This document shows, piece after piece, positions 19,979 through 40,629 of a stretch of 40,629 nt of DNA. Every line of letters starts with the position of its first letter. The stretch's first letter is position 1. The notes beneath the pieces are model-generated. The model was not told the DNA's origin, made no database searches, and worked only from the letters and a program-made list of their open reading frames with translations. The DNA lies in IMG/VR virus record IMGVR_UViG_3300024231_000961, positions 1 to 40,629 of that record. One strand, given 5' to 3'. This DNA comes from a virus. Made by a program: the position numbers and the translations under genes.

Positions 19979-20006
19979 GCTCATGTTAATTAATTAAGAT
20001 AAAGTA

Positions 20007-20153: not shown

Positions 20154-20168
20154 CTAAAATTAAGTTAT

Positions 20169-21098: not shown

Positions 21099-21367
21099 AA
21101 AAACTAAAAAAGAGTTACTGGAACTACTACCTTAGGAACATGGTTAGAGATAGAAGACTGACCCCGGCCGAACGTTTAGGTACAAGAGTAGGGTATATGG
21201 GAGTTGGATTCTTAATAGCAGGACAATGGACACTAAATCCAGCTATGTATGTAATAGGTTTTGGATGTGTCTTAATACAGGTAGCAATTCGTAGACAGTG
21301 GAACTTAGTAGCTCTACAGTTAAACGGTTTAATTGCCTGGACGATACATTTTATAAATTCGTTATAA
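21095..21367 (+). CDS. Small membrane protein, 90 residues
   Basis: The protein has a basic N-terminus (MKKLKKSYWNYYLRNMVRDRR) followed by about two to three hydrophobic helices (near residues 33-60 and 70-88). It is coupled to the flavodoxin-like gene by an ATGA overlap, so the two may work together at the membrane. I do not recognise a family. Confidence 0.55.
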   Translation: MKKLKKSYWNYYLRNMVRDRRLTPAERLGTRVGYMGVGFLIAGQWTLNPAMYVIGFGCVLIQVAIRRQWNLVALQLNGLIAWTIHFINSL

Positions 21368-21402
21368 AAAAACGTATATTTAGTTGGATATAAGGAATAT
21401 TC

Positions 21403-21413
21403 TGACTATATTA
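21403..21413 (+). promoter_or_regulatory. Promoter-like motif before the queD/queE operon
   Basis: TGACTATATTA keeps the TATATTA core of the recurring motif. Another candidate, ACGTATATTTA, lies at 21372-21382. The distance from this core to the start codon (48 bases) equals that in front of folE. Confidence 0.4.
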
Positions 21414-21430
21414 TATTATAGGTAATAATT

Positions 21431-21460
21431 AGTGTCGTAGCACCACTTTAAAAACACACG
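21431..21460 (+). promoter_or_regulatory. PreQ1-I-like riboswitch (type II form) upstream of the queD operon
   Basis: A 4-base stem AGTG (21431-21434) / CACT (21444-21447) encloses the loop TCGTAGCAC. An A-rich tail TTAAAAACACACG (21448-21460) follows. From memory, the Thermoanaerobacter preQ1-I aptamer has loop UCGCAGUAAC and tail UUAACAAAACAAGG; the last loop C (the ligand-pairing position), the loop G and the tail C of the floor pair correspond. The loop CGT can pair with ACG (21458-21460), which lies 1 base before the ATG at 21462, so ligand binding could hide the start region and repress translation. Confidence 0.6.
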
Positions 21461-21461
21461 T

Positions 21462-21686
21462 ATGAGAGAAGAAATACACAATGAGTTATGGGATAGAGAA
21501 AATAGAGACTCTATCAAAATCGACGGACAGAAGATACCTGATCCGAAATTACACCAAAGAATATCTTTTATTAAATCAGCTATTAGAATGGGGGCATGTG
21601 CTTTCGGATTCTTTGGTATGTTTGAAGTAGGGTTTATTGGACTATTTTTAGCAGAAATAGTTGGTATTGGTGAAGAATTAGTTTAA
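21462..21686 (+). CDS. Small membrane protein, first gene after the preQ1-like leader
   Basis: The 74-residue protein has a charged N-terminus (MREEIHNELWDRENRD) and one or two hydrophobic helices near residues 43-72. It is first in the queD/queE operon and its start codon is the one nearest the riboswitch-like element. In an operon controlled by preQ1 a precursor or queuine transporter could be expected, but 74 residues is very short for one. The function is unknown. Confidence 0.55.
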   Translation: MREEIHNELWDRENRDSIKIDGQKIPDPKLHQRISFIKSAIRMGACAFGFFGMFEVGFIGLFLAEIVGIGEELV

Positions 21687-21695
21687 ATTAAAGTT

Positions 21696-22160
21696 ATGGG
21701 AAAATTTCAATCAACAAAAGTATTTGACGGGTACTCTACTGTATTTCGTCAATGGAAAGCAACAACTACACATTGTTCAAAACTACACGGATATGGTGTA
21801 TCATTTAAGATATGGTTCGAAGGAGAGTTAGATGAGAGAAACTGGGTCTGGGATTTCGGAGGAATGAAAAGAGCTAAAGGAACTATAGAAAAGATGACAC
21901 CTAAAGCATGGATGGACTATATGTTTGACCATACCTTTTTAGTAGCTGAAGACGATCCATTTAAGGAGTCTTTTATGCAAATGGATTTAGCTAAAGTAGC
22001 TCAAGTACGAATAGTTCCGGCAACAGGAGCAGAGAGCTTTGCTAAATTTATATACGAAAGTATAAATCCATTTATAGAAGAAGAAACCGGCGGTAGAGTT
22101 AAGATAACAAAAGTAGAATTTAGAGAACACGCTAAAAATAGTGCAATTTATGTCGCATAA
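21696..22160 (+). CDS. queD: 6-carboxy-5,6,7,8-tetrahydropterin synthase, divergent QueD
   Basis: The 154-residue protein is a QueD/PTPS-family enzyme, which turns dihydroneopterin triphosphate into 6-carboxytetrahydropterin. Visible are THCSKLHGYGVSFKIWFEG with the catalytic Cys, VWDFGGMK, FDHTFLVAEDDP with the Asp-His pair, and KVEFREHAKNSAIY with the Glu that binds the pterin. The usual LHGH zinc motif is LHGY, and the first zinc His (FxAAH) is not obvious. This pattern matches a divergent QueD group that I recall from proteobacteria. It starts with AGTT-ATG and overlaps queE. Confidence 0.8.
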   Translation: MGKFQSTKVFDGYSTVFRQWKATTTHCSKLHGYGVSFKIWFEGELDERNWVWDFGGMKRAKGTIEKMTPKAWMDYMFDHTFLVAEDDPFKESFMQMDLAKVAQVRIVPATGAESFAKFIYESINPFIEEETGGRVKITKVEFREHAKNSAIYVA

Positions 22161-22938
22161 ACAATTAAAAAGAATAGAGGATTACGATAAGAATCTGCCT
22201 ATTGTAGAAATATACACAGCAGTACAATCAGAAGGATCAAGAGCTGGTTACCCAACAGTAGTAATTAGAACAACAGGATGTACACATAGATGTTATTTCG
22301 GTGAAGGAGGATGGTGCGATAGCTGGTATACAAGCATACACCCAGAAAAAGGGCACTTTAACTTTAAAGATATTATTAAAGCATATGAAGATAATCCTCA
22401 TATAAAAGAAATGATGTTAACTGGTGGTTCACCAACAATGCATCCAGCCTTAGTAAACGAATTAACACACTTTGCACATGAAAACAATATATTCATTACT
22501 ATTGAAACTGAGGGATCTCATTTTCTTCCTACCGATTATCCTATTAATTTGCTTAGCATTAGTCCTAAGTTTAGTAATAGTGTCCCCGTTGTTGGTGTTG
22601 AAACTCCTCAGGGATCCATTACAGACGAAAGAATGGTAAAACGTCATAATAAGTTTAGACTTAATTACGAAGCAATAAAACAATCAATTGATTATCATTC
22701 TGATTACCATATTAAACCCGTATGGGACGGTAAAGATGAGGGAGCATTATCCGAGATTATGGAATGTATTGATACCTTAGAAGTACCTCAACATAAAGTT
22801 TGGTTTATGCCTGCCGGAGATTCTAGAGAAGCCCTATTCAAATCTTATCCCGTATTATTTGATTGGGTAAGAGATAATGGATATAGAATGACTTGGAGAC
22901 CTCATATCATCGCTTTTGAAGACCAACGTGAAGTATAG
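22150..22938 (+). CDS. queE: 7-carboxy-7-deazaguanine synthase, radical SAM QueE
   Basis: The radical SAM enzyme makes CDG from 6-carboxytetrahydropterin. From the ATG at 22150 it has 262 residues; a GTG at 22141 is possible but gives a longer overlap with queD. EIYTAVQSEGSRAGYPTVVIR is the typical QueE start. The cluster motif is CTHRCYFGEGGWC (Cys44, Cys48, Cys56), CX3CX7C instead of the common CX3CX2C; such expanded spacing is known in some QueE groups. MMLTGGSPTMHP is the GGE-like SAM-binding motif and ETEGSHF also fits. It acts between QueD and the QueC-like enzyme. Confidence 0.87.
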   Translation: MSHKQLKRIEDYDKNLPIVEIYTAVQSEGSRAGYPTVVIRTTGCTHRCYFGEGGWCDSWYTSIHPEKGHFNFKDIIKAYEDNPHIKEMMLTGGSPTMHPALVNELTHFAHENNIFITIETEGSHFLPTDYPINLLSISPKFSNSVPVVGVETPQGSITDERMVKRHNKFRLNYEAIKQSIDYHSDYHIKPVWDGKDEGALSEIMECIDTLEVPQHKVWFMPAGDSREALFKSYPVLFDWVRDNGYRMTWRPHIIAFEDQREV

Positions 22939-23072
22939 TGGATAAAAAAGAGGCATTAGAAATATTAGAAAATATAGCAGAAAACATTAATACATGTTGT
23001 GCAATCACTATGGAACCAGATGACGTTTTAGTACTATGTGATAAACTAAAAATATATATAGAGAATGATTAA
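22938..23072 (+). CDS. Small acidic protein, 44 residues
   Basis: A GTG start shares its G with the last base of the queE stop (TAGTG), and the gene overlaps the next ATG by 8 bases. The product is acidic and helical with three cysteines (TCC near residue 20, LCD near 34). The tight coupling on both sides supports it. No family is recognised. Confidence 0.45.
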   Translation: MDKKEALEILENIAENINTCCAITMEPDDVLVLCDKLKIYIEND

Positions 23073-23364
23073 CTTAAAAGAATTAATAGAATCAGCAGGT
23101 CCAGGTAGACTAGATCATACGATTACTATAGAAGGAAGCCCAGTTTGGGACTATAAAATGGGAGACGTACATACTGTATTTCTTATATCAGAAGACCCTT
23201 GGGAAGGTGTAGAAGAAGAGTACGTAACTTTAAAAGAATTAAGAAAGTACATAGTAGACAGCTTCATACCTTTCGAATCAGTAAAATTTAAAACAGAAGC
23301 AGATAGAGAATTAATTAAAAGTTATAAATGGGAAGAAAAGCAATTAATTTTATCACATTACTAA
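23065..23364 (+). CDS. Hypothetical acidic protein, 99 residues
   Basis: A soluble, acidic protein with alternating beta and helix predictions by eye, overlapping its neighbours at both ends (8 bases upstream, 37 downstream). It has no recognised motif. It belongs to the queD/queE transcription unit but need not share its function. Confidence 0.55.
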   Translation: MINLKELIESAGPGRLDHTITIEGSPVWDYKMGDVHTVFLISEDPWEGVEEEYVTLKELRKYIVDSFIPFESVKFKTEADRELIKSYKWEEKQLILSHY

Positions 23365-23909
23365 TACTAATACCTTTTGTAAGTGTTAGTCAAGTAGTAG
23401 AAGTAGAAACAAAGATATACAAAGTATTATACGATCAAGATTTAAAACAACCTCTTGAAGTTAGTTATACAGTACTATGTCCGAAAGGAGAAGCCGACAG
23501 AGCAGGAATGGATTTTAGAACTGTTCCTAATATAGTCACATCCACACCAGAGGACTATTCTAATAATGTATGGGATAAAGGACATTTAGCTCCTGCAGCA
23601 GCATTTAGCTGTACTAAGGAGATGTTAAGAGAGACGTTTCTATACTTTAACTGTGCTCTTCAACATGAAAGCTTAAATAGAGGGGTATGGAATAGGTTAG
23701 AACAATTCGAAAGAAGTCTAGCTAATTTTTATCAAGTTGAAGTAACGATAGAGGTGTTATTTGACGATAAGGTAAGAAGAGTTCCTACAGGAGCAGCAAT
23801 ACCTAAGGAATTTATAAAGACTATAAAATTCGGTGATAAGAATTTAAAATTTAGATTTCCAAACTCTAATACATCAGGAACGGATTGGATTGATTACTTA
23901 ATAGACTAA
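23328..23909 (+). CDS. Exported DNA/RNA non-specific endonuclease
   Basis: This 193-residue nuclease has a signal peptide (MGRKAINFITLLILIPFVSVSQ, likely cleaved near residue 21) and the beta-beta-alpha-metal fold of the DNA/RNA non-specific endonuclease family. The DRGH-type motif is DKGHLAPA (residues 83-90, His86 the general base). Asn108 (FNCALQ), Gln112 and NRGVWNRLE (117-125) supply the metal and conserved positions. It would cut nucleic acid in the periplasm or outside the cell. The start at 23328 overlaps the preceding gene by 37 bases but includes the whole signal peptide. Confidence 0.8.
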   Translation: MGRKAINFITLLILIPFVSVSQVVEVETKIYKVLYDQDLKQPLEVSYTVLCPKGEADRAGMDFRTVPNIVTSTPEDYSNNVWDKGHLAPAAAFSCTKEMLRETFLYFNCALQHESLNRGVWNRLEQFERSLANFYQVEVTIEVLFDDKVRRVPTGAAIPKEFIKTIKFGDKNLKFRFPNSNTSGTDWIDYLID

Positions 23910-23912
23910 AAA

Positions 23913-24083
23913 ATGACAGAGAAAGAATTTATTGACTGGATAAGAGGTTATGTAGACGGAGTTCATACATACTCAGTTTCACCTAAGCAATGGCAATACC
24001 TAAAAGATAAAGTTAGGAGTATATCTACAGGCTCTACTAGATACACTATAGATAGTGACAAATGGACAACTAACATAGCATGA
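23913..24083 (+). CDS. Small protein, 56 residues
   Basis: A short gene filling the gap between the secreted nuclease and the phosphoribosyltransferase, with a 4-base ATGA overlap with the latter. The product begins MTEKEFIDWIRGYVDG, a pattern common in small phage proteins of unknown role. It has several Trp/Tyr residues and no membrane segment. Confidence 0.55.
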   Translation: MTEKEFIDWIRGYVDGVHTYSVSPKQWQYLKDKVRSISTGSTRYTIDSDKWTTNIA

Positions 24084-24490
24084 CAATGGAACCAAAGAAA
24101 ATTTACATTACCTGGGAGAAGGTTAACGAACTATTGGATAAAGTATATGATCAATGCAAAGGGGAGATATCATTAGTAACAGGCGTACCTAGAGGAGGTA
24201 CAATATTAGCAATACTATTTTCACATAGATTCAATATACAGTATACTCCTTATATGAGCAACCACTATCCTAGCATGCTTATCCTAGACGATATAGCAGA
24301 TTCAGGAAAAACATTTCAAGACTTAGAAAAAGACTTTCCTAAACCTAAGTACGGAGCACTACATTACAAAAATATCTCAGTATTCGAACCCGACTACTAT
24401 GCAGAGGAAATAGATGAAGATTATGGTTGGATAGTATACCCTTGGGAGAAAAAAGATTCAAATACTATTCAAAATTATTTGGAGAATTAA
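24080..24490 (+). CDS. Phosphoribosyltransferase
   Basis: This 136-residue type I PRTase has the PRPP-binding motif MLILDDIADSGKTF (residues 66-79) with the two Asp and the glycine loop. An early GVPRGG (35-40) binds pyrophosphate. The fold is complete but short. The likely reaction joins a base to PRPP; a purine such as hypoxanthine, guanine or xanthine is most plausible, but specificity cannot be read here. It is next to folE and MazG-like genes, suggesting nucleotide pool management. A second ATG at 24086 is also possible. Confidence 0.75.
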   Translation: MTMEPKKIYITWEKVNELLDKVYDQCKGEISLVTGVPRGGTILAILFSHRFNIQYTPYMSNHYPSMLILDDIADSGKTFQDLEKDFPKPKYGALHYKNISVFEPDYYAEEIDEDYGWIVYPWEKKDSNTIQNYLEN

Positions 24491-24497
24491 AATAAAT

Positions 24498-24508
24498 TAC
24501 TTATATTA
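24498..24508 (+). promoter_or_regulatory. Promoter-like motif before folE
   Basis: TACTTATATTA, a variant of the recurring motif, with 48 bases to the folE start codon. A second TATATTA core lies at 24513-24519. Confidence 0.4.
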
Positions 24509-24520
24509 TTATTATATTAA

Positions 24521-24550
24521 TGAGTCGTAGAACCTCAAAAAAAACAATTA
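24521..24550 (+). promoter_or_regulatory. PreQ1-I-like riboswitch (type II form) upstream of folE
   Basis: TGAG (24521-24524) pairs with CTCA (24534-24537) around the loop TCGTAGAAC, followed by an A-rich tail (24538-24550). The loop differs from the element at 21431 by one base and has the final C expected to pair with preQ1. The tail C at 24545 could make the floor pair with the loop G. A clear second stem is not visible here: UAG/UUA with a wobble is the best I see. The same loop next to two genes of one pathway argues against chance. Confidence 0.55.
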
Positions 24551-24556
24551 AAATTT

Positions 24557-25270
24557 ATGCCTAAAAAGTTTATAGACGGAACAGAATTAGTAAAAGCAGG
24601 ATATGCAAACGGTATATCAAGCCAATTAGCAGAGAAGCAAAAAGCAGAAGGACCTGAAGCTAGGTTAACTGAACATGAGAAACAAGTAATTATAGAAAGA
24701 GCAGCAAATGCGTATGCAGATTTTCTAACTGCATTAGGATGTGATTATAAAGACGATCCTAATTCATCTGATACTCCTCATAGAGTAGCAAAAGCATACG
24801 TTAATGACTTATGGGCAGGAAGGTATAACCCTTTAGACCGTATTACAGCATTTCCTTCTGATGGATACGATGGTATTGTACAGGAGAGTAATATCCCAGT
24901 AACTTCTATGTGTTCTCACCATCACCAAGCTATTAGAGGTACAGTAAGTATAGCTTATATAGCTTCAGAAGACGGTAAAGTAGTAGGACTATCTAAGTTA
25001 AATAGAATAGTAGAGCAATTCGGTAGAAGAGGTGCAATACAAGAGCAACTAACTGTAGCGATACATAATGCTGTAGATAAGATATGTGAAGGTAATTTAG
25101 GAGTAGCAGTACAGGTAAATGCTACTCACGCATGTGTTTCATGTAGAGGAGTTAAACATGGTGGAGCATCAATGCAAACAGCTAAATTAACAGGAGCATT
25201 TTTACACGAAGATTCAGCTAAAGCAGAATTTTATAAGAATATAGAACTAGCTTCAATTTGTAAACATTAA
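24557..25270 (+). CDS. folE: GTP cyclohydrolase I
   Basis: The 237-residue enzyme converts GTP into dihydroneopterin triphosphate, the entry step to 7-deazaguanines as well as folate. The zinc ligands are visible: Cys119 and His122 in SMCSHHHQAIRG, and Cys193 in THACVSCRG. SDTPHRVAKAY near residue 71 and GLSKLNRIVEQFGRR near 144 are the family's substrate motifs. The first 40 residues look like an extra polar extension. It follows a preQ1-like leader, so expression probably responds to the pathway end product. Confidence 0.92.
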   Translation: MPKKFIDGTELVKAGYANGISSQLAEKQKAEGPEARLTEHEKQVIIERAANAYADFLTALGCDYKDDPNSSDTPHRVAKAYVNDLWAGRYNPLDRITAFPSDGYDGIVQESNIPVTSMCSHHHQAIRGTVSIAYIASEDGKVVGLSKLNRIVEQFGRRGAIQEQLTVAIHNAVDKICEGNLGVAVQVNATHACVSCRGVKHGGASMQTAKLTGAFLHEDSAKAEFYKNIELASICKH

Positions 25271-25275
25271 AAACT

Positions 25276-25797
25276 ATGGAAGGAAAACAATTATCATTAT
25301 TCCCTATACTAGATGCTATGTCTGAAAAAGACTATGTACCTTTTGTTAGTGAAGTAGAAACATTTAACAACACCTTTAATAAACCTAATAACTATGAACC
25401 TACTATACCGGCTAAGAAAGAGTGGCAATTCGTATATGACTTCATACTCGAAGAACTTGAAGAATATAGAGAAGCTTGCGAAAACGGGGACATTGTGGAA
25501 GTTTTGGACGCTTTGTGCGACATTGCTTATGTTTCCCTTGGGAACGGTACTATGCTACATGGCCTTAAGAATCAGATATGGCCAGCATATCAAGAGGTAC
25601 AAGCAAGTAATATGTCGAAGGCTTGTAAAACTGAAGAAGAAGCCATACGCAGTGTCAGCAAAAGAACTCAGGAACAAGGTGAGGCCTGCCATTTTGAGAA
25701 GATTGATGAGGGACGGTATATTGTCTATAGAACACGTGACAAGAAGGTAATGAAAAGCATTAATTACTTCAGACCAAATTTAAAACAATTCTTTTAG
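25276..25797 (+). CDS. MazG-like nucleotide pyrophosphohydrolase
   Basis: The 173-residue protein has the all-helical MazG/HisE pattern: EELEEYREACENGDIVEVLDALCDIAY (residues about 56-82), with the EExxE and ExxD metal-binding sets. It would hydrolyse an NTP to NMP and pyrophosphate, perhaps cleaning unwanted nucleotides or altering host alarmone levels. The C-terminal part (about 120-173) is basic and of unknown role. It lies 5 bases after folE. Confidence 0.7.
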   Translation: MEGKQLSLFPILDAMSEKDYVPFVSEVETFNNTFNKPNNYEPTIPAKKEWQFVYDFILEELEEYREACENGDIVEVLDALCDIAYVSLGNGTMLHGLKNQIWPAYQEVQASNMSKACKTEEEAIRSVSKRTQEQGEACHFEKIDEGRYIVYRTRDKKVMKSINYFRPNLKQFF

Positions 25798-25798
25798 T

Positions 25799-25984
25799 AT
25801 GGTCGATTTAACTAAACATAAGATATATGTAGATAGCCATAAAATGGATATGGTGCCACTATCTATAGCAATTAAAGCAGTTGAAGAAGCAAGCACACCG
25901 GAAGTAGAAAAATATGCAGAAGAATTTGAAAATGCAATGGCAGAATTACATAACTCAATAAAGGATATAAAATTAGATGATTAG
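25799..25984 (+). CDS. Small acidic protein, 61 residues
   Basis: The ATG follows the MazG-like stop by 1 base and the gene overlaps dpdA by 8 bases. The product is mainly helical and acidic (EEFENAMAELHNSI), with an HKIYVDSHKMDMVPL beta-like start. The function is unknown. Confidence 0.5.
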   Translation: MVDLTKHKIYVDSHKMDMVPLSIAIKAVEEASTPEVEKYAEEFENAMAELHNSIKDIKLDD

Positions 25985-26777
25985 AATAGCTCATGAGAGT
26001 CCCAAAAGTATTTTCAACGATGTACAAAAGTATACAGATTACGATTACGCATTAGTACACTTATTAGAAGAAGATAAGGAATATTTAGAACAGTTTAAGG
26101 AAGCAGTAAAAAAGGGTAGAGAAGTAATACTTGATAACTCTATTTTTGAATTGGAAGAAGCATTCGATGCTGATAAATTTGCACATTGGATTAATGAACT
26201 AAGACCTACATGGTATATAGTCCCAGATGCCCTCGAAGATACTAAAAAGACTATGAGTCAAATGGCAAGCTGGAATATGCATTACTCCGATTTAGTGCAT
26301 GGAAAAAAGATAGGAGTAGTACAGGGTAAGACATATAAGCAGATAGTAGCATGTTACGAATATATGGATAAAATTGCCGATGTAGATATGATCGCAATAT
26401 CTTTTGATTATTCGTATTATACCGATTCTATACCTCATCCTAACAAGTACGTTAGTTGGATGCTAGGACGTATTAAGCTACTAGGAGATTTAGTAAGAGA
26501 CGGTATTATAAATGAAAATAAACCTCATCACTTACTAGGCTGTGGCTTACCTCAAGAGTTTTCATACTATTCTCAATACCCTTGGATTTATTCTCTAGAT
26601 ACTAGTAATCCTGTCGTACATGGCATTAAAGGTATACCATACGGTTCAGATGGATTATTCTCAAAAGAAAGACAAAAGCTTCATGAGCTTATTAATTTTG
26701 AAGTGGAAGATACGAACTTGATTTTAAATAATATTCATAAATTTAAATGGCTTACAAATGGAAAGAGAGCAGTATAA
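25977..26777 (+). CDS. dpdA: DNA 7-deazaguanine transglycosylase, DpdA-like
   Basis: The 266-residue protein resembles the tRNA-guanine transglycosylase (TGT) superfamily in the short form used by phages to modify DNA. Key patterns are VILDNSIFE (Asp53), YIVPDALED (Asp84), IGVVQGKTYKQI (113-122), IAISFDYS, HLLGCGLPQE (185-194) and IYSLDTSNP (Asp208). It lacks the zinc domain of tRNA TGTs. It would replace guanine in DNA with preQ0- or preQ1-type bases. It sits with folE, queF and a formyltransferase, which supports DNA rather than tRNA as target. It overlaps the next gene by 20 bases. Confidence 0.8.
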   Translation: MIRIAHESPKSIFNDVQKYTDYDYALVHLLEEDKEYLEQFKEAVKKGREVILDNSIFELEEAFDADKFAHWINELRPTWYIVPDALEDTKKTMSQMASWNMHYSDLVHGKKIGVVQGKTYKQIVACYEYMDKIADVDMIAISFDYSYYTDSIPHPNKYVSWMLGRIKLLGDLVRDGIINENKPHHLLGCGLPQEFSYYSQYPWIYSLDTSNPVVHGIKGIPYGSDGLFSKERQKLHELINFEVEDTNLILNNIHKFKWLTNGKRAV

Positions 26778-26949
26778 GGTAGGAGATAAAGTAAAATTTA
26801 GTTTTATTGGTCAAGTAGAAGTAGGAGTGATAGAAACAATAAGCGAAGGTAATGTGAACTTCTCTAATTTCAATACTAAGTATAGTATAAGAAGTGGAAG
26901 ACACCTGTACCCTGTTTCTTATGAAGGTATAGAAAGTATAATAAAATGA
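26758..26949 (+). CDS. Small KOW/SH3-like protein, 63 residues
   Basis: Starts within the last 20 bases of dpdA and overlaps the formyltransferase by 4 bases. The sequence YKVGDKVKFSFIGQVEVGVI, then GRHLYPVSYEGI, is that of a small SH3/Tudor-like beta barrel, as in KOW domains. It could bind nucleic acid or a partner enzyme. Position suggests a helper of DNA modification, but this is inference. Confidence 0.55.
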   Translation: MEREQYKVGDKVKFSFIGQVEVGVIETISEGNVNFSNFNTKYSIRSGRHLYPVSYEGIESIIK

Positions 26950-27488
26950 GAAAACCCTGGATAGCATTCTTCAGTCAAACTGGTTCGGAAATAGTGGACA
27001 TAGCTAATGCATTAGGCTACTGGCCTGATGCTATAATAACTAACGAAAGGCCTTCAAATATTAGGAAGATTAATAGCGATTTACTAGAACAGAATTTATT
27101 AGCAACAACAATAAATAAGCCCCTAGTAGAGGATTATGAAGAAGTTATAGGTTTCTATAAGGATCCTATAATAACACTACATGGATGGTTAAGAATTATG
27201 CCTCCTTCTATATGTGAAAAGTACAGCATATTTAATGGACATCCAGGACTTATTACAGAGTATCCGGAACTTAAAGGTAAAGATCCACAGATTAGAGCAT
27301 TTGAAGGAAAATACCCAGTTATGGGATGCGTACTCCATAAAGTAGATGCAGGTGTAGACGAAGGTAAAATACTAGCAGAGGAAAGATTTAATGCTTTCAA
27401 TATTACGGAAGAAGAGATGTGGAAGGTAACTAGAGATAGATCTCTATTTCTTTGGGTAGACTTTCTTAATAAAGCAGTTGGAAAGTAA
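26946..27488 (+). CDS. Formyltransferase-like protein, candidate dPreQ1 formyltransferase
   Basis: The 180-residue protein has the formyltransferase fold of PurN and Fmt, which use 10-formyl-tetrahydrofolate. The catalytic set is present: Asn97 and His99 in FNGHPGLI, and Asp138 in HKVDAGVDEGKIL. ELKGKDPQIRAFEG matches the KG..P..A region. It lies 4 bases into the preceding gene, right after dpdA, and ends before the kinase/queF unit. A phage dPreQ1 formyltransferase (DpdN) has been described in 7-deazaguanine phages, so formylation of a DNA base is the best guess. A purine or sugar formyltransferase is the alternative. Confidence 0.7.
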   Translation: MRKPWIAFFSQTGSEIVDIANALGYWPDAIITNERPSNIRKINSDLLEQNLLATTINKPLVEDYEEVIGFYKDPIITLHGWLRIMPPSICEKYSIFNGHPGLITEYPELKGKDPQIRAFEGKYPVMGCVLHKVDAGVDEGKILAEERFNAFNITEEEMWKVTRDRSLFLWVDFLNKAVGK

Positions 27489-27496
27489 TTTATAAT

Positions 27497-27507
27497 TTCG
27501 TATATTA
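27497..27507 (+). promoter_or_regulatory. Promoter-like motif TTCGTATATTA before the kinase/queF unit
   Basis: An exact copy of the recurring motif, 22 bases before the ATG at 27530, with AAAGGTTTT just before the start. Confidence 0.5.
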
Positions 27508-27529
27508 TATATAAATAATAAAAGGTTTT

Positions 27530-28048
27530 ATGGTAAATAGAGTTGCATTAGTAGGAGCAAGTAGTACGGGTAAGACTACGGTTTACGAATTACTTAAAAA
27601 TAAACTACCTAAATACGAGTTCATAAATGAATCGACTAGATCAGTAGCAGAGTATGGATTTCCTATTAACGAGAAAGGCACTTCAAAAACTCAGCTTGCT
27701 ATTAGTAGCTTTCATTTAGAAGCTTTACTACGTCCAGGAGACTTACTACTTGATAGATGTTATATGGACCTAATGGTATATTCTAATTTTATGCCAGGTA
27801 TAGATGCTCCAAGTCACTCGTATATTGAAGATACTTGGAATAGAGTTAAAAAACAATATACACATTATATTTACTTTCCTATTGAATTTAAATCGGTTGA
27901 CGACGGAGTAAGGAGCGTTAATGAAGAATGGAGAGTAAAGATTGATAAAGAATTTAAATTACTTCTTGATGGAGTAAGAAAACCCTACCTAACTGTAACA
28001 GGGTCACCATTGCAGAGAGTTGAACAAATATTAGAATATATTAATTAA
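27530..28048 (+). CDS. P-loop ATPase/kinase, AAA_28 or NadR-like
   Basis: The 172-residue P-loop protein has the Walker A motif GASSTGKTT at residues 9-17, a lid-like region LLDRCYMDLMVYS (about 75-87) with the conserved Asp-Arg pair, and a DxW/Arg-rich end. This is the pattern of small nucleoside, nucleotide or NadR-type kinases. It is the first gene of the queF unit. It could act on a nucleotide, a deazaguanine nucleoside or NAD precursor; nothing in the sequence decides between these. Confidence 0.7.
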   Translation: MVNRVALVGASSTGKTTVYELLKNKLPKYEFINESTRSVAEYGFPINEKGTSKTQLAISSFHLEALLRPGDLLLDRCYMDLMVYSNFMPGIDAPSHSYIEDTWNRVKKQYTHYIYFPIEFKSVDDGVRSVNEEWRVKIDKEFKLLLDGVRKPYLTVTGSPLQRVEQILEYIN

Positions 28049-28052
28049 AATT

Positions 28053-28964
28053 ATGGCAGACGTTAAAAATTATCAAGAAGTAGTTGATATTGCTTCTAAG
28101 CATTTAGGAAAAGTAGGAGGAGATGGTTATAAGGATACTTACTCTCCTGAATTATTAGTAAAAGTACCTAGGTACTTAAATAGAGAAGGTTACGGACTTA
28201 CATCTGAAAGCTTTGTAGGAGTAGATACTTGGAATTGTTATGAAGTATCAGCAATTACTTCTAAAGGATTACCGGTTTCAGGTATGTTAAAAATTGTATG
28301 TCCTTCGGATAGCGAATACCACGTAGAATCGAAGTCAATTAAATTATATCTCAACTCATTTAATATGACCCATATAGGAGATAACTCAGCAGACTGTATG
28401 GCAGTTATAGAAGCTAGAGTAAAAAGAGATTTAGATGAGTTACTAGAAACTAGTACTACAGTTTCCTTTTATGAGTCTTCAGATGAAGGTAAAGCTATTT
28501 CATTTGAAGGATACTCAGATCTTGGAGATATAGTAGATTTAGATCAAATAGATTTTATACAATATAAATCAGATTCTTCTCAACTATTAATAGAAGATAG
28601 AGTTGATGAACCTATAGAGATTAAGTTAAAATCTAACTTACTTAGATCTAACTGTAGGGTAACTAACCAGCCAGATTGGGGAGATGTATTTATTAAAATT
28701 AAAGGAAGAGATATTCCTGCAGCAGATGCACTTGCTAAATATATTGTTAGTCATAGGACTGTAAGTCATTTCCATGAAGAGATTTGTGAAATGGTGTTTA
28801 AACACTTAATGGATGCTTATAAGCCGGAACAGTTAATGGTATCATGTCTGTATACTAGAAGAGGTGGATTAGATATTAATCCTATAAGAGCAACTCATCA
28901 AAGTTTAATACCAGACTTCTTTACAAATACAGATTATAGAATAGAAAAAACTTTAAGACAGTAG
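28053..28964 (+). CDS. queF: NADPH-dependent preQ0 reductase
   Basis: The 303-residue long-form QueF reduces the nitrile of preQ0 to the amine of preQ1. The motif VESKSIKLYLNSFN (91-104) is the family signature for NADPH binding, and the catalytic Cys201 is in RSNCRVTNQPDWGD with Asp208. The C-terminal VSHRTVSHFHEEICEMVFK and YTRRGGLDINPIR are as in E. coli QueF (282 residues). The N-terminal half is the bimodular partner domain. With folE, queD and queE it makes preQ1 supply possible, and this is what the riboswitch-like leaders would sense. Confidence 0.9.
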   Translation: MADVKNYQEVVDIASKHLGKVGGDGYKDTYSPELLVKVPRYLNREGYGLTSESFVGVDTWNCYEVSAITSKGLPVSGMLKIVCPSDSEYHVESKSIKLYLNSFNMTHIGDNSADCMAVIEARVKRDLDELLETSTTVSFYESSDEGKAISFEGYSDLGDIVDLDQIDFIQYKSDSSQLLIEDRVDEPIEIKLKSNLLRSNCRVTNQPDWGDVFIKIKGRDIPAADALAKYIVSHRTVSHFHEEICEMVFKHLMDAYKPEQLMVSCLYTRRGGLDINPIRATHQSLIPDFFTNTDYRIEKTLRQ

Positions 28965-32375: not shown

Positions 32376-32792
32376 ATGAGTACATTATTTTTAAATGAAC
32401 GGTCTCCGTTCGACATTTTAGTTAGAAATCTTTTTCAAGAAGCTGGCAAATTTTCTCCGCTAGCACACGACACCAAAGTAGCCCATCCAGTAGACGTTAT
32501 CGAAGCTCCAAAAGGAGTTCAGATAGATATTGCTTGTACAGGAATCCCAAAAGAAGAAATTGAGATTATTGTAGATGGAAACAATCTTAAGGTAAATTAC
32601 GAAAAATCCAAAGTGAAGGAAGAAACAAAATACTTACATAGAGGTATTGCAAAACGTTCCTTTAACCTAGGATGGAAAATCGACAGCAAATACGACTTAT
32701 CAAAAGCCGAAGCAAACTTTATTAATGGTTTGTTGAAGATTGATATTCCGTTTGCTAAAGGATCTGCACCAAGATCTTTGAAAATTAAATAG
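32376..32792 (+). CDS. Small heat-shock protein, Hsp20/alpha-crystallin
   Basis: The 138-residue protein is an Hsp20 chaperone that holds unfolding proteins without ATP. The alpha-crystallin domain runs from about residue 38 to 125 with VQIDIACTGIPKEEIEIIVDG, YLHRGIAKRSFNL and the typical NGLLKIDIPF end. A short N-terminal arm (SPFDILVRNLFQEAGKFSP) and a C-terminal LKIK tail resembling the I-x-I anchor fit oligomer formation. It is followed by groES and groEL, so the phage carries a three-part folding set. A 10-base inverted repeat encloses this gene alone. Confidence 0.88.
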   Translation: MSTLFLNERSPFDILVRNLFQEAGKFSPLAHDTKVAHPVDVIEAPKGVQIDIACTGIPKEEIEIIVDGNNLKVNYEKSKVKEETKYLHRGIAKRSFNLGWKIDSKYDLSKAEANFINGLLKIDIPFAKGSAPRSLKIK

Positions 32793-32800
32793 GTTTTATC

Positions 32801-32810
32801 CGCTCTAGGG
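32801..32810 (-). repeat. Right arm of inverted repeat flanking hsp20
   Basis: CGCTCTAGGG, the reverse complement of 32316-32325, lies 8 bases after the Hsp20 stop and 20 bases before the groES promoter-like motif. The arms could pair in the hsp20 mRNA or mark the ends of an inserted gene. Confidence 0.5.
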
Positions 32811-32829
32811 TTTGATTTTCGAAAAATAG

Positions 32830-32840
32830 TTCGTATATTA
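32830..32840 (+). promoter_or_regulatory. Promoter-like motif TTCGTATATTA before groES
   Basis: An exact copy of the recurring motif, 25 bases before the ATG at 32866. CAGTTATAA precedes the start codon. Confidence 0.5.
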
Positions 32841-32865
32841 ATTTAATAAATAAAAACAGTTATAA

Positions 32866-33174
32866 ATGAGTAAAACACTTATTCCACAGAATGACCGTGT
32901 ACTGATTAAGCCTATAGATGAAGGCGAGCAGATGTATGGCAATATTGTAATCCCTGATATGGGTAAAGAAAAGCCGGAAATGGGCGAAGTCCTAGAAATA
33001 GGACCGGGTAGATTATCTGAATTTGGACATTTCATTGCAGTTAATGCAAAAGTAGGAGATATAGTCTTAGTTCCAAAAATTGGTACATTACGTATTGACT
33101 TTGAAGGAGACGAGTACTACATAGTACAGGATAGAGAAATATTAGCAACAGTTAAAGAAAGAGATAATGGATAA
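32866..33174 (+). CDS. groES: Co-chaperonin GroES
   Basis: The 102-residue protein matches GroES: PQNDRVLIKPIDEGEQMYGNIVIPD at the start with a mobile-loop region around residues 21-33, GEVLEIGPGR, VKVGDIVLV and EYYIVQDREILATV at the end. It would cap the GroEL cage. The stop overlaps the groEL start by 8 bases. Its own promoter-like motif drives the pair. Confidence 0.92.
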   Translation: MSKTLIPQNDRVLIKPIDEGEQMYGNIVIPDMGKEKPEMGEVLEIGPGRLSEFGHFIAVNAKVGDIVLVPKIGTLRIDFEGDEYYIVQDREILATVKERDNG

Positions 33175-34801
33175 GAAAATCGTATTTTCATCAGAAGCAA
33201 GAGAAGAGTTACTTAAAGGAGTTAACAAACTAGCAGACGCTGTTGTAGCTACACTAGGACCATCAGGCCGTAACGCAATAATAGAACAAAACCAAGGCAA
33301 CCCAGTATCAACAAAAGATGGTGTTACAGTTGCTAAATCTATAGACTTAGAAGATAGAGTAGAAAATATAGGAGCACAATTAGTTAAACAGGCTTCTATT
33401 AAGACTGCTGATCAAGCTGGAGACGGAACTACCACGTCTACATTATTAGCAAGAGAAATATATAAGCAGGGTATTGAAAGAATGACCAGTGCAGTAAATG
33501 CTGTAGATATCAAGAGAGGTATCGACGATGCAGTAGAAAAGACAGTAGAATTTTTAAAAGAGTATTCAAAAGATATTACGGACGAAGAACAGCTAAAACA
33601 AGTCGCTACCATATCAGCTAACAACGATACAGAAGTTGGTGAGTTAATTTCCACAGCCATGGACAAAGTAGGACGAGACGGTGTAATTACTATCGAAGAA
33701 TCAAGAACAGGAGAAACCTACCTAGAAACGGTAGAAGGAATGCAATTTAGCAGAGGTTATAAGTCTCCTTACTTTGTTACAGATAATAATACAATGCAAG
33801 CTGTTCTTCGAGATCCGTTAATATTGATTGTAGACAAGCGACTAAACCAGGTTAAAGAAATACTACCTATCTTAGAAGCAGTATCTCAACAAAATAAATC
33901 ATTAGTACTTATTGCCGATGATATAGACGGAGAAGCGTTATCTACTCTTGTGGTAAATAAGATGAGAGGTATTCTTCAAGCAGTAGCAATTAAGGCACCT
34001 GCATTCGGAGATCGTAAGAAAGCAATGTTAGAAGATATTGCAGTACTAACAGGAGGTACGGTTATATCACCTGAGAAAGGAATGCGATTAGATAAGTTTG
34101 ACTCTGCCTGGTTAGGTACTGCTAAAAAGGTAGTAGTAGGAAAAGAAACTGCTACCATCATCGATGCACAAGGAGAAGAAGAAGCTATTCATTCAAGAGT
34201 TGAAGAATTAAAATCTCAAATTGATGAAAGTTCTTCTAACTATGAAATTGAAAATCTACAAGAAAGATTAGCAGCATTTATCGGAGGTGTAGCGATTGTA
34301 CATGTAGGAGGTCATACTGAAGTAGAGATGAAAGAAAAGAAAGACAGAGTAGATGATGCTCTTCATGCAACAAAAGCAGCTTTAGAAGAAGGAATTTTGC
34401 CTGGAGGAGGAATCGCATTACTTAATGCATCTAAATACTTGTCAGGTATCATCGGAGACATTTCAGTTAAAGATCAACAAACAGGTTACGATATAGTTAT
34501 TCAGTCAATTGAAAAACCATTCTTCCAGATATTAGAAAACGCAGGATACAGTAATGTTAATGCAGGAGACGTAGAAGAGTCAGTTCTAACTTCTGAAGGA
34601 GATACCTGGGCAGGATATGATCCAAGAAAAGAAGAGGTAGTTAATATGTTAGAAGCCGGTATTATTGACCCTACAAAAGTAACCAGGCTTGCATTAGAAA
34701 ATGCTGCATCAGTAGCCGGAACTATGTTAATAACAGAAACGGTTATCTCAAATATTAAAGAGAAAGAAAATAAAGGTATTGATCCTAACATGATGATGTA
34801 A
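33167..34801 (+). CDS. groEL: Chaperonin GroEL
   Basis: The 544-residue protein is full length and has the family landmarks: TLGPSGRNAIIEQ, TKDGVTVAKSI, the ATP-binding DQAGDGTTTSTLLA, RGYKSPYFVTDN in the apical domain, GGVAIVHVGGHTEVEMKEKKDRVDDALHA, and the end GIDPNMMM. The first Asp of DGTTT is intact. Phages with both groEL and groES are few. It probably folds phage proteins, or replaces a host chaperonin under infection stress. Its stop overlaps the next start by one base (TAATG). Confidence 0.95.
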   Translation: MDKKIVFSSEAREELLKGVNKLADAVVATLGPSGRNAIIEQNQGNPVSTKDGVTVAKSIDLEDRVENIGAQLVKQASIKTADQAGDGTTTSTLLAREIYKQGIERMTSAVNAVDIKRGIDDAVEKTVEFLKEYSKDITDEEQLKQVATISANNDTEVGELISTAMDKVGRDGVITIEESRTGETYLETVEGMQFSRGYKSPYFVTDNNTMQAVLRDPLILIVDKRLNQVKEILPILEAVSQQNKSLVLIADDIDGEALSTLVVNKMRGILQAVAIKAPAFGDRKKAMLEDIAVLTGGTVISPEKGMRLDKFDSAWLGTAKKVVVGKETATIIDAQGEEEAIHSRVEELKSQIDESSSNYEIENLQERLAAFIGGVAIVHVGGHTEVEMKEKKDRVDDALHATKAALEEGILPGGGIALLNASKYLSGIIGDISVKDQQTGYDIVIQSIEKPFFQILENAGYSNVNAGDVEESVLTSEGDTWAGYDPRKEEVVNMLEAGIIDPTKVTRLALENAASVAGTMLITETVISNIKEKENKGIDPNMMM

Positions 34802-37287: not shown

Positions 37288-37545
37288 ATGATTAAATATT
37301 TAAAAGATAAGATAATGGCATTCAAGAATTTATTTGATGACGATAACAATATTAACGAAAAGTCCGTGGTAGGATTTTTAGCATTCGCTGTAATGGTAAT
37401 ATTTGCAGTAGCAGATCTAGTAACTGGATACATCGGTACAGATTTAGTAATAAACGAATTTATATACGACTCCTTTGTGTGGATAGTATTAGGTGCTTTT
37501 GGAATAGCTGAGGTCGGTAAAGTATTCGGCAACAGAGGAAAGTAA
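37288..37545 (+). CDS. Holin-like membrane protein, 85 residues
   Basis: The product has a charged start (MIKYLKDKIMAFKNLFDDDN) and two transmembrane helices (about 25-47 and 58-78) with a short Gly/Asn turn, then a basic end. The pattern NEKSVVGFLAFAVMVIFAVAD and SFVWIVLGAFGIAEVGKVFG is what I recall from small putative holins of Bacteroidota phages. It would make lesions in the inner membrane at lysis. Evidence is structural and from gene layout, so a structural or regulatory membrane protein is possible. An alternative start is 37318. Confidence 0.5.
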   Translation: MIKYLKDKIMAFKNLFDDDNNINEKSVVGFLAFAVMVIFAVADLVTGYIGTDLVINEFIYDSFVWIVLGAFGIAEVGKVFGNRGK

Positions 37546-37570
37546 CCTAAAAATAATGTAACTTATAAAG

Positions 37571-37592
37571 GAGGGCATTAGCCCTCTTTTTT
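37571..37592 (+). terminator. Rho-independent terminator after the holin-like gene
   Basis: GAGGGC (37571-37576) pairs with GCCCTC (37581-37586) around ATTA, then six T (37587-37592). It separates the holin-like gene from the exported-protein cassette, which must have its own promoter or rely on read-through. Confidence 0.8.
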
Positions 37593-37608
37593 ATGAACAA
37601 TTATTTAT

Positions 37609-38679
37609 ATGAAGAAACTAACCTTTATATTAGTATTAATTAGTGGATTTATAAATGCACAATCTCCTCTCTGTTCTTCTACTTCGACAAACTTTGGGTA
37701 CGAACGTTTAAATTCAATAAATATAAATGGACAAAATTACATTGTAAATACAGGATGGAATGGGCCTGGATATGTAGATTATACAGGCACTCCAGTTCCT
37801 ACAATTACTGCTGGAGATATAATTACTCTTAATTTTCAAGCTCAAACACAAGGTAATTACAAACAATACTTTAAATTATGGATTGATTTTAACGGTAATG
37901 GAAATCTAAATGATGTAGGAGAATTAGTTCATACAAGTAATAGTCAGTGGTCTGGAACTAGAAACTTTAACCACACATTTACTGTTCCGGAAACAGTTTT
38001 CAATGGAGAAGTTTATATGAGATTTATAATGGTATATTCTTCTTCCCCTACCTTATGTGGTAATTATTCTTATGGTAATACAGTTGATTTCAAAACTACT
38101 ATTACAGGAGCTACTGATCCGATAAACCACAGCGGGTACGTTTATGGTGCTGAAGAAGAACCTTTAGAAGGAGTTACAGTTCAACTTAAAACACAAAACA
38201 AAAACCAGGTTGGATTTAGTTATAACTTACACTCAGAAGCTGTAACAGATACAAACGGGGCTTATAGTTTTTCAACTAATTTAGACTATAATAATTATGA
38301 TTATACTATAGATGTAGTACCTCCTGCACTATCAACCCCTACTTTAAGTGATGTTAACTACTTTACTAATAAATTAATCAGTGGAGTTTATAACTCTAAA
38401 GACTACTGGAGAATGGATGTTAATAATGATGGAAAATTTAGTGTAGCAGATCTATACTTTATGTTAGCTTATATGAATGGTGTAGTTACACAGTACACTA
38501 GTAATACTCCTTCAACAAAGGTTTTTCATTATCAACAAACTCCATTTGATTGGGATCCTTTAGATACAGATACTGATGACAAATCTGAAAATTTTGGATA
38601 TGGGAGTTATAGTTTATTTGATCGAAGTAATGGAGACTCTACTATATTTTACTTAATAAGAACCGGACACAGGAACTAG
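37609..38679 (+). CDS. Exported GEVED-domain and dockerin-like protein
   Basis: The 356-residue protein starts with a signal peptide (MKKLTFILVLISGFINAQS, cleavage near 18). Residues about 25-165 match a GEVED domain, a beta-sandwich common in Bacteroidota secreted proteins (WIDFNGNGNLNDVGELV, then VYMRFIMVYSS). A carboxypeptidase-regulatory-like beta domain follows (about 175-240; GYVYGAEEEPLEGVTVQL). A dockerin-like module lies near 255-292 with the calcium loop DVNNDGKFSVAD at 270-281. It has no sorting domain. It heads a three-gene cassette and could dock to a cohesin on the third protein. Confidence 0.7.
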   Translation: MKKLTFILVLISGFINAQSPLCSSTSTNFGYERLNSININGQNYIVNTGWNGPGYVDYTGTPVPTITAGDIITLNFQAQTQGNYKQYFKLWIDFNGNGNLNDVGELVHTSNSQWSGTRNFNHTFTVPETVFNGEVYMRFIMVYSSSPTLCGNYSYGNTVDFKTTITGATDPINHSGYVYGAEEEPLEGVTVQLKTQNKNQVGFSYNLHSEAVTDTNGAYSFSTNLDYNNYDYTIDVVPPALSTPTLSDVNYFTNKLISGVYNSKDYWRMDVNNDGKFSVADLYFMLAYMNGVVTQYTSNTPSTKVFHYQQTPFDWDPLDTDTDDKSENFGYGSYSLFDRSNGDSTIFYLIRTGHRN

Positions 38680-38717
38680 TTATATTTATAATAAATTAAC
38701 GTTAAAATAAGATTACA

Positions 38718-39806
38718 ATGAAAAAAACGATTACCCTCATAACCGCATTATTAATCACAGTGTTTACATATGGTCAAACTACATCACCTGATGCAACTAA
38801 GCCGTATGTAATTCTTGATTCTACTTACAATTTAGAGTCAGTTAATTCCTCAAACAATACCGTAGTTGACATTTACTATGATAACACATCAGGGAACACA
38901 GTAAAAGGTATTCAATTCTCTTTCAGCTATGATAAAGATGTGTTTGATACACCAATTATAACTTATAATAATACTTCAGGACCTGTAGGTTATATGTCTA
39001 CAGATGTGGATGCAACAAATGGAATTGTAAAAGTTGTATGGGCCTATGATGGTGCTTCTACTACTTTTGACCTTATTGCCGGTAATATGTTTGATATTGA
39101 ATTACCATTCAAATCCAGCTACTCTAATGGTACAGTTGATGGGATTGATTTTACAAATGATTTAACTGCTTATTATGCACAAACTGATGGTACAGATGCT
39201 ATTTTAGGCACATCAGATAATGGCGGTAACTTTATAGAACCAGCATTTGATTATGTAGCAACTATCTTAAATAGTGCAACAAACCCAGCAGAATCTATTC
39301 CTGTAATTTTACAAAAATCAGCAGATGGCAGTACTTGGGTGGATGTCGCTACAGATACAACAGCAGCCGATGGAACAGCAACATTCTCAGAAAATATAGA
39401 TCAAGATTACTGGCAAGTTAGATTAAAAATTGCAAGTGGTTTAGATGCAAGTACAGCATTATCAGCAGCTGATGCAAATATGATTGCTCAAATAGCAGCA
39501 GGAGTACAAACATCAACAGGTATACAATTTTATACCGGTAATACAAACCAAGCAAATGGTATTACGGTATCAGATTCTTATATGTTATTTGCTAGATTAG
39601 CTCAAGGTTTAAGCGCTTATACAAATAACCCCGATGTATTATTCTTTACTGAAGCTCAATACAATACTATTAATGCTGCTACCTCAGATCAATCTGGTAC
39701 AATCTCAGGACAAGAAGAATTCTTATCACCACAAATAAATGGAACTACAGCAGGTAATTTCTACTTATTAGTATTAGGTGATGCAAATGGAACAGGATTA
39801 AATTAA
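38718..39806 (+). CDS. Exported cohesin-like protein with dockerin-like repeats
   Basis: The 362-residue protein has a signal peptide (MKKTITLITALLITVFTYGQ, cleavage near 20). Residues about 35-150 resemble a cohesin/carbohydrate-binding beta sandwich (VVDIYYDNTSG, KGIQFSFSYDKDVFD). After a variable beta region it has dockerin-like repeats (SAADANMIAQIAAGVQ, then NGITVSDSYMLFARLAQGL) and a final LGDANGTGLN. Low-complexity Ala/Thr/Asp composition fits a surface protein. Both a binding face and a docking face appear in one chain, so it may act as a linker between the other two proteins. Confidence 0.6.
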   Translation: MKKTITLITALLITVFTYGQTTSPDATKPYVILDSTYNLESVNSSNNTVVDIYYDNTSGNTVKGIQFSFSYDKDVFDTPIITYNNTSGPVGYMSTDVDATNGIVKVVWAYDGASTTFDLIAGNMFDIELPFKSSYSNGTVDGIDFTNDLTAYYAQTDGTDAILGTSDNGGNFIEPAFDYVATILNSATNPAESIPVILQKSADGSTWVDVATDTTAADGTATFSENIDQDYWQVRLKIASGLDASTALSAADANMIAQIAAGVQTSTGIQFYTGNTNQANGITVSDSYMLFARLAQGLSAYTNNPDVLFFTEAQYNTINAATSDQSGTISGQEEFLSPQINGTTAGNFYLLVLGDANGTGLN

Positions 39807-39809
39807 TAA

Positions 39810-40547
39810 ATGAAATCGTTATTAGTATTCTTACTAACATTATCAACAGTAGCTCACTCTCAGGTCAAATTTAACGTACCTGAGATTGAGGTACCTGTTA
39901 GTGATTATATTAATTTACCGGTTGTAATAGAAACTAATAGCAACGATGTAGGTAGCTTAGAATTTGCACTAAATTATGACCCTACGTACTTAGCCTTTGA
40001 AGACATATCTGTAACAGCTAAAGCTCAGCAGTGGTTAACCTATACGATGGACTGGCAAGGCGAAACAGTTAGATGGGGAGGGTACGATGCTTCATTTGGT
40101 AATTATACAATAAACTCACCTACAGAACTATTCACAGTTAGGTTTAAAGTAGTAGATCAATCATGGGTAGAGATACCTATTACTATAGGGAGAAAAACCG
40201 CAGGAACTGAATTAGGTTGGGATATAGAAGTTATAAGCACAGATGGTTATGTAAATAAAAGATTAACGTCCTTTGAAGTACCACCTATAGATGGCATCTA
40301 CGGAATAGCATACCCAGTCCCTACTACCGGACTTATAACATTAGAGTTAACAGTACCTGAAAATGGAGAGTATAAAGTTATAGTAACTGATTTTTTAGGT
40401 AAAAAACACGGTGTATATAATAAGAGATTTTTCTCGGGGTATGTATCTTTTAGAGTGGATGTTAGGGACCTTGCTACTGGTATCTATTTATTACAAGTAA
40501 CTAACGGTAGGTTTGTTAAGACATTTAAAATTATTAAGAATGGGTAA
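39810..40547 (+). CDS. Exported cohesin-like protein with T9SS C-terminal sorting domain
   Basis: The 245-residue protein has a signal peptide (MKSLLVFLLTLSTVAHSQ, cleavage near 18), a cohesin-like domain (about 20-150; PVVIETNSNDVGSLEFALNY, AGTELGWDIEVIS) and a C-terminal sorting domain (about 166-245). The latter starts at YPVPTTG and has the usual FLGK, GIYLLQV and TFKIIKNG segments of the type A (Por secretion tail) family. This domain directs proteins through the T9SS of Bacteroidota to the cell surface. It starts 3 bases after the second protein and overlaps the next gene by 8 bases. Confidence 0.75.
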   Translation: MKSLLVFLLTLSTVAHSQVKFNVPEIEVPVSDYINLPVVIETNSNDVGSLEFALNYDPTYLAFEDISVTAKAQQWLTYTMDWQGETVRWGGYDASFGNYTINSPTELFTVRFKVVDQSWVEIPITIGRKTAGTELGWDIEVISTDGYVNKRLTSFEVPPIDGIYGIAYPVPTTGLITLELTVPENGEYKVIVTDFLGKKHGVYNKRFFSGYVSFRVDVRDLATGIYLLQVTNGRFVKTFKIIKNG

Positions 40548-40629
40548 AAAGAAAACATTTTTTTCGGAAATTAAAAACCAAATAGTAACAGGAATTGGAT
40601 TAGTAATAACAGCAGGATTTGGATTATTA
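40540..40629 (+). CDS. Membrane protein, N-terminal part (3' partial)
   Basis: An ATG at 40540, overlapping the cassette by 8 bases, opens a frame that runs off the window. The visible 30 residues (MGKKKTFFSEIKNQIVTGIG, then LVITAGFGLL) show a basic start and the beginning of a transmembrane helix. A small phage membrane protein is likely. Confidence 0.5.
   Translation, partial: MGKKKTFFSEIKNQIVTGIGLVITAGFGLL

Follow-up and report, generated by a model that had tools for sequence, protein, structure and literature searches.

A candidate phage operon for the display of exchangeable lectins on infected Bacteroidota cells through a T9SS-anchored cohesin and dockerin-like scaffold

Why should a bacteriophage carry genes for cohesins, dockerin-like modules and the sorting domain of a bacterial secretion system? 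The question is raised by the right end of a 40.6-kb virus fragment (IMG/VR record IMGVR_UViG_3300024231_000961; the whole stretch of 40,629 nucleotides is called the window here), where three consecutive open reading frames (ORFs) follow one another on the plus strand. A first-pass annotation made from the sequence alone had read positions 37609-40547 as a phage-borne cassette of three genes with signal peptides, whose third product would be anchored on the infected cell by the type IX secretion system (T9SS) of the host and would hold the other two through cohesin-dockerin pairing. The three ORFs were confirmed, and we refer to their products as P1 (client), P2 (adaptor) and P3 (anchor). Their N-termini (...FINAQS, ...TYGQTT and ...AHSQVK, respectively) were read as signal peptides by eye. 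Our analysis suggests that the three genes belong to a phage-encoded surface-display operon, which probably uses the host T9SS to expose an exchangeable lectin at the surface of the infected cell.

The anchor P3 (245 aa; 39810-40547, plus strand like all features of the cassette) lies in frame with P2 and is separated from it by TAA TAA. Behind its signal peptide, it consists of a cohesin domain (residues 19-118; 39864-40163) and a C-terminal T9SS type A sorting domain (residues 168-244; 40311-40541). The cohesin was recognized at the sequence level (PF00963; 3.2e-9, 37.5 bits with a cut-off of 24.1), as was the sorting domain, which matched both TIGR04183 (41.1 bits, cut-off 23) and Por_Secre_tail (PF18962; 1.2e-8, 35.6 bits, cut-off 27). 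With a signal peptide and a C-terminal domain above the curated cut-off, P3 has the sequence features of T9SS type A cargo. A search of PDB sequences with the P3 profile returned only two chains, both matching the C-terminal domain.

The client P1 (356 aa; 37609-38679) is composed of a signal peptide, a tip, an X module, a dockerin-like module and a conserved tail that ends in GxxN and has homologs in 80 distinct clients. The tip is a GEVED domain (PF20009; residues 87-162, 37867-38094; 7e-14, 52.9 bits with a cut-off of 24.4), and sub-threshold matches suggest that the X module is prealbumin/CnaB-like, that is, of the Ig/prealbumin-like kind. The GEVED, cohesin and sorting domains of the first-pass annotation were thus all found above the Pfam or NCBIfam cut-offs. 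The dockerin-like calcium loops that it also listed stood in part: P1 has a perfect EF-type loop, DVNNDGKFSVAD (residues 270-281; 38416-38451), but this is a single half-repeat with a sub-threshold Dockerin_1 match (E 0.0045, 17.6 against 22.9 bits), and the loop of P2 is degenerate.

The protein P2 (362 aa; 38718-39806) gave no meaningful match in the Pfam/NCBIfam search (hits to Mitofissin and MG4 were dismissed as chance), and nothing was found in PDB sequences with its profile. Its AlphaFold2 (AF2) model is good for residues 20-170, fair up to residue 240 and poor after that, the dockerin-like module included. In Foldseek, the best PDB matches of this model were the cohesin-X-dockerin structures of CipA (4fl4_C and 3kcp_A; E 2e-6 and 7e-6, 233-242 columns), followed by many single cellulosomal cohesins with template modelling (TM) scores by target of 0.6-0.69. 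The cohesin-fold domain (about residues 25-170; 38790-39227) matched the P3 cohesin of phage immuto, described below, in BFVD (E 4e-7); it is through its fold alone that P2 qualifies as a cohesin. As judged from the model, Foldseek and alignment A1, the signal peptide and the cohesin-fold domain are followed by an X module, a dockerin-like module (about residues 244-297; 39447-39608) and a tail. We conclude that P2 is an adaptor that combines a cohesin with an X-dockerin region, more than a ligand. The sequences support P3 as a T9SS-anchored cohesin with P1 and P2 as dockerin-type partners, as had been proposed, but the adaptor brings a cohesin of its own.

The X-dockerin-tail region is common to P1 and P2 (hhalign probability 97.7, E 2e-12, 160 columns). 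D270, N272 and D281 of the P1 loop are invariant in alignment A3, and the P2 loop, degenerate in the window (TGNTNQANGITVSD), has the typical form DVNGDNNITISD in the fused clade described in the next paragraph. The pattern D-x-[ND]-x-[DNST]-x6-D was present in 77 of the 80 distinct client tails and in all 59 distinct scaffolds, compared with 3% of shuffled sequences; this recurrence exceeds chance. Each protein has one good loop, the first half being degenerate, and the best score was 20.2 bits with a cut-off of 22.9. Going by sequence, we term these modules dockerin-like only.

A second clade has P2 and P3 united in a single chain of ~630 aa with the order signal peptide, cohesin, X, dockerin-like, cohesin and T9SS tail. 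There are 59 distinct fused chains (21 in the first set), a scan of IMG/VR with their profile identified 317 scaffold relatives, and the fused profile aligned with P3 at E 8e-35 (hhalign). Since the two proteins form one polypeptide in a large related clade, we conclude that P2 and P3 act together, and the gene fusion may be taken as indirect support for cohesin-dockerin pairing. Pairing of the dockerin-like module of P2 with the P3 cohesin, which we propose, would explain why the scaffold can be made as one chain or two. Three otherwise fused scaffolds (L251 and L257, 11080-11140 in both; L250, 1718-1778) have an in-frame TGA, directly followed by ATG, precisely at the P2/P3 joint, and stop readthrough that yields anchored and free forms is possible. 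The single in-frame TGA and the lack of a signal peptide on the second part ruled them out as an independent split of the scaffold, and none of them entered the tally of split genes whose anchor would function.

Is the cassette really of viral origin? Four records of immuto, a cultured lytic phage of Flavobacterium sp. LMO8 from the Baltic Sea, match the trio at the DNA level, and genes gp013-gp015 of this phage (NC_055915) keep its order, with a C-type lectin protein first, a hypothetical protein second and a 'cohesin domain-containing protein' third. In a virus contig of 167.7 kb (L035), identity over the trio and its flank is about 88% in DNA, with 87-96% in protein, and all 39 distinct P2+P3 pairs have the order P1-P2-P3 where the contig reaches that far. 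L161, which at first appeared to lack the trio, is truncated by the end of its contig. When 84,980 cellular genomes were searched with the split-clade P2 profile, a single relative was found. It lies in a metagenome bin, on a contig of 10.8 kb that has ribonucleotide reductase genes of phage type as well; 72,556 plasmids gave no match. The trio is 86% identical between this contig and the window. It follows the ribonucleotide reductase genes in the bin contig and lies about 20 kb from them in the window, showing that the block occupies different places in related phages. The cassette is near-absent from the cellular genomes searched with this profile, and it is neither a host island nor an assembly artefact. 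Its assignment to a phage was upheld by immuto, and the two outcomes that the first-pass annotation had named as contrary, domains that match none of the families and genes confined to host chromosomes with an assembly junction here, did not occur.

The tips of the clients fall into several types: GEVED, PA14 (two forms), C-type lectin, C-type lectin with a nested LamG/concanavalin domain, and unassigned. Scaffolds of both kinds, split and fused, were found with each of the GEVED, PA14, C-type lectin and C-type lectin with LamG tips; for PA14, the example beyond the main split clade is L251, whose scaffold has the in-frame stop. The EPN and WND motifs, a mark of mannose-type sugar binding that depends on calcium, are conserved in all 37 distinct clients with a C-type lectin, and no glycoside hydrolase domain was detected in the clients scanned. 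Between the window and contig L120, the GEVED tip is 97% identical, with a synonymous divergence (dS) of 0.04, far below that of P2 (0.47) and P3 (1.4), which indicates a recent swap of the tip. The ratio of nonsynonymous to synonymous divergence (dN/dS) was 0.06-0.28 throughout. Mapped on the P2 tree, the tip classes changed 13 times, the minimum being 6. We conclude that client tips are exchanged between phages as modules.

The composition of the system is also constant. Sixteen records of 147-434 kb have exactly one T9SS tail and one copy of P5, a downstream protein introduced below, and two X-dockerin modules each, one in the scaffold and one in the client; a third module in one record belongs to a second client. 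Each phage thus has a single anchor and, as a rule, a single client. Two tandem clients, with an unassigned and a C-type lectin tip, are encoded upstream of P2 in a 157-kb phage (L051, 6642-8918).

The unit does not end at 40547, where the first-pass annotation had placed its boundary. The next gene, P4, starts at 40540 and the window ends 90 bases into it (40540-40629; MGKKKTFFSEIKNQIVTGIGLVITAGFGLL...); P4 is short, with one hydrophobic segment, and the same gene is present in L035. In relatives, P3 is followed by P4, P5 (about 235 aa), P6 (about 450 aa) and P7 (about 150 aa), P6 and P7 being secreted; in the fused clade, P1 is located downstream of the scaffold, on either side of P7. The order of the cassette repeats in every viral contig that is long enough to reveal it, except in one lineage without a recognizable client (L172 and L183, with kin L182, L240, L247 and L248), which keeps the scaffold and P5-P7. 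A scan of IMG/VR with a P5 profile yielded 252 relatives. P2 was present in 71 of the 75 newly fetched P5 loci, the remaining four being cut by contig ends, and 127 of the 153 loci from both scans (loci, not distinct genomes) hold scaffold, P5, P6, P7 and client together. The trio is half of a larger operon consisting of the scaffold (P2 and P3), P4, P5, P6, P7 and the client P1.

P5 had no Pfam match, CsgG included. The top 12 PDB matches of its poor AF2 model in Foldseek were all CsgG (E 2e-3 to 1e-2), and P5 may tentatively be regarded as CsgG-like. For P6 and P7, there was no Pfam or profile match: curlin repeats of CsgA/B were not found, and neither P6 with CsgF nor P7 with CsgE aligned significantly in hhalign. 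The terminal F of P6 recalls, in our reading, an outer-membrane barrel. When PDB sequences were searched with the profiles of P5, P6 and P7, any hits were due to chance: nucleolar and histone proteins with P6 and ribosomal protein S1 with P7. One subgroup has a 318-329 aa Ala/Glu/Val-rich protein (...SAEAHATTEVTDTSV...) between P3 and P5 (L076, 11936-12892; L161, 432-1421), and a secreted phage protein with the dockerin-like loop DFDGDGIVGAEDLLTFLSNYG adjoins the cassette in L045 (5974-6339, minus strand).

On the other side of the cassette, directly 5' of P1, a terminator-like hairpin with a T run was recognized by eye (37560-37595; GAGGGCATTAGCCCTCTTTTTT), so that the operon probably has its own transcript. 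The gene immediately upstream (37288-37545) encodes a small holin-like membrane protein, whose homolog in L046 (15381-15623) has an endolysin-like gene two genes downstream. The rest of the window carries replication, nucleotide, queuosine-pathway and chaperone genes. QueC, a radical SAM protein, GTP cyclohydrolase I and QueF (19190-28964) make up a deazaguanine pathway that probably serves DNA modification, and an Hsp20 recognized by Pfam and an apparent GroEL of 544 aa, both phage-borne, are encoded at 32376-34801.

How would such a system work? We propose that P1, P2 and P3 reach the periplasm through their signal peptides and that the host T9SS carries P3, or the fused P2-P3 scaffold, over the outer membrane, where the C-terminal domain would fix it on the surface. 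In the fused clade, the link between P2 and P3 would be covalent; in the split clade, P2 would dock into the P3 cohesin with its dockerin-like module. P1 would in turn dock into the P2 cohesin through a dockerin-like module of its own and so present its carbohydrate-binding tip, the module that the phages exchange. P5-P7 would form a companion outer-membrane unit, in which P5 may serve as a CsgG-type pore for the export or nucleation of the part that has no T9SS signal. The most likely purpose would be that the infected cell, or the debris after lysis, adheres to glycans on host cells or particles in its vicinity and thereby raises transmission.

Several observations weigh against this proposal. 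The dockerin matches were under the Pfam cut-off in every protein tested; with the degenerate P2 loop in the window, this means that calcium-dependent pairing is not assured, and the AF2 model of P2 is poor across the same module. One lineage (two records of 57 and 132 kb) has the scaffold and no recognizable X-dockerin client. P5 showed no significant relationship to CsgG of E. coli, HTVC008M or Melnitz in hhalign (probability about 1-2%), the alignments being collinear over 180 columns, and its likeness to CsgG rests on Foldseek matches of a low-confidence model (pLDDT 45). Finally, the host T9SS is assumed from Flavobacterium biology, immuto being the sole phage with a known host.

The same surface complex could instead act in superinfection exclusion, if the lectin covered the receptor glycan and kept competitors, and the phage's own progeny, off the doomed cell. 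Tip exchange would fit variable host surface glycans, the sugar-binding motifs are kept, and roles in inter-strain competition or superinfection were proposed for the T9SS cargo of Cryophage (PMC7468147). However, 12 phages with a C-type lectin tip had a single Lectin_C match each, the client itself, and no second Lectin_C protein. The tip as a duplicate of a tail receptor-binding lectin is thus not supported and no link between tip and receptor is seen, and a five-gene operon with P5-P7 appears elaborate for mere masking. We consider masking of the receptor rather unlikely; as a purpose, it would take a close second place to transmission.

A role in lysis or envelope damage, in which P5-P7 would be an outer-membrane pore set that aids release and P1-P3 accessories, appears improbable to us. 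The Foldseek likeness of P5 to CsgG, the holin-like and endolysin-like genes nearby in the clade of the window, and the proposal of phage CsgGF as a lysis-timing pore in Melnitz (PMC9004378) are in its favour, but it leaves unexplained why a two-cohesin scaffold, a T9SS anchor and an exchangeable lectin are inherited together with P5-P7. Still less probable is that P1-P3 decorate the capsid or tail of the particle or serve in adsorption. Phage particles often bear lectin and Ig-like domains, and the P1 tip resembles an adhesin, but tailed double-stranded DNA phages assemble in the cytoplasm, P1-P3 have signal peptides, and the anchor has a T9SS tail in every phage tested; moreover, the operon of immuto adjoins replication and nucleotide genes, away from the annotated structural genes. 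That the genes are host-derived passengers for glycan capture or adhesion, as chance morons or contamination, is hardly credible: surface proteins of Bacteroidota do typically have cohesin, GEVED, PA14 and LamG domains and T9SS tails, but the trio occurs in a cultured phage, its only match in the cellular genomes searched with the split-clade profile is on a phage-type contig, plasmids have none, and the 39 distinct pairs are conserved at the low dN/dS values given above.

Is a system of this kind already known? Its module order has a counterpart in the C-terminal trimodule of CipA and the anchoring scaffoldins of Clostridium thermocellum (4fl4, 3kcp, 2b59), where cohesin, X and dockerin follow one another as in P2. 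The P2 model matches this trimodule best, the clients carry X-dockerin, and the cell-anchored cohesin of P3 would hold P2 as in a cellulosome. In contrast to a cellulosome, the phage system is virus-borne and without enzymes, has one cohesin per step (two in all, with one or two clients) and a T9SS tail instead of S-layer domains; its dockerins are under the Pfam cut-off, and its X modules may not be homologous.

Among phages, the nearest precedents are the curli operons of pelagiphages and the T9SS cargo of Cryophage. Type VIII secretion (curli) operons of pelagiphages and methylophages, such as HTVC008M and Melnitz (PMC7029224, PMC9599517, PMC9004378), are likewise phage operons for secreted surface proteins, with a CsgG-type protein there and only a CsgG-like one here. 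Unlike them, our system has no recognized CsgA/B repeats and no significant sequence match of P5 to CsgG, displays a cohesin-dockerin lectin scaffold with a T9SS anchor, and belongs to other hosts. For the phage curli, 'sibling capture' of host cells was proposed (PMC7029224, PMC9599517). This logic would fit an infected cell that bears a lectin, and superinfection exclusion would fit nearly as well. Cryophage encodes T9SS type A cargo with variable passengers, including PA14, that is thought to use the host T9SS (PMC7468147); these are single proteins with their own tails, whereas the operon described here is conserved, and its exchangeable partner protein, which has no tail of its own, would be held by a single anchor. 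In crAss-like contigs, T9SS tails have been mentioned in the vicinity of BACON proteins (PMC6949934). Split and fused versions of the system are already deposited, as immuto gp013-gp015 (NC_055915) and UniProt A0A6J5M064, with no annotation beyond 'lectin C-type domain', 'hypothetical', 'cohesin domain' and 'Secretion system C-terminal sorting domain'. In the open-access literature searched for cohesin, dockerin and T9SS with phage, no system of this form was described. The claim that no such phage system had been described therefore holds for the architecture but not for phage T9SS cargo and phage curli operons. We rate the whole system as new in kind, with known parts, because it is neither a strict dockerin pair nor a cellulosome nor a curli system, though it would work like the first two.

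In its broadest form, which we put forward tentatively, our interpretation is that large Bacteroidota phages may possess a dedicated, modular T9SS-anchored cohesin-dockerin scaffold, complete with a CsgG-like outer-membrane unit of its own, that makes an adhesive trap of the infected cell through the exchangeable lectins on display, a new class of virus-encoded surface machine present in hundreds of phages of 150 to over 400 kb. The cultured pair of immuto and Flavobacterium sp. LMO8 makes this interpretation testable now. If it is true, a virus would use the T9SS of its host to anchor a multi-part complex, and viruses would remodel the exterior of their bacterial hosts by a plug-and-socket display of lectins, which bears on the means by which large phages that infect particle-associated Bacteroidota stay in contact with new hosts or shut out rivals.

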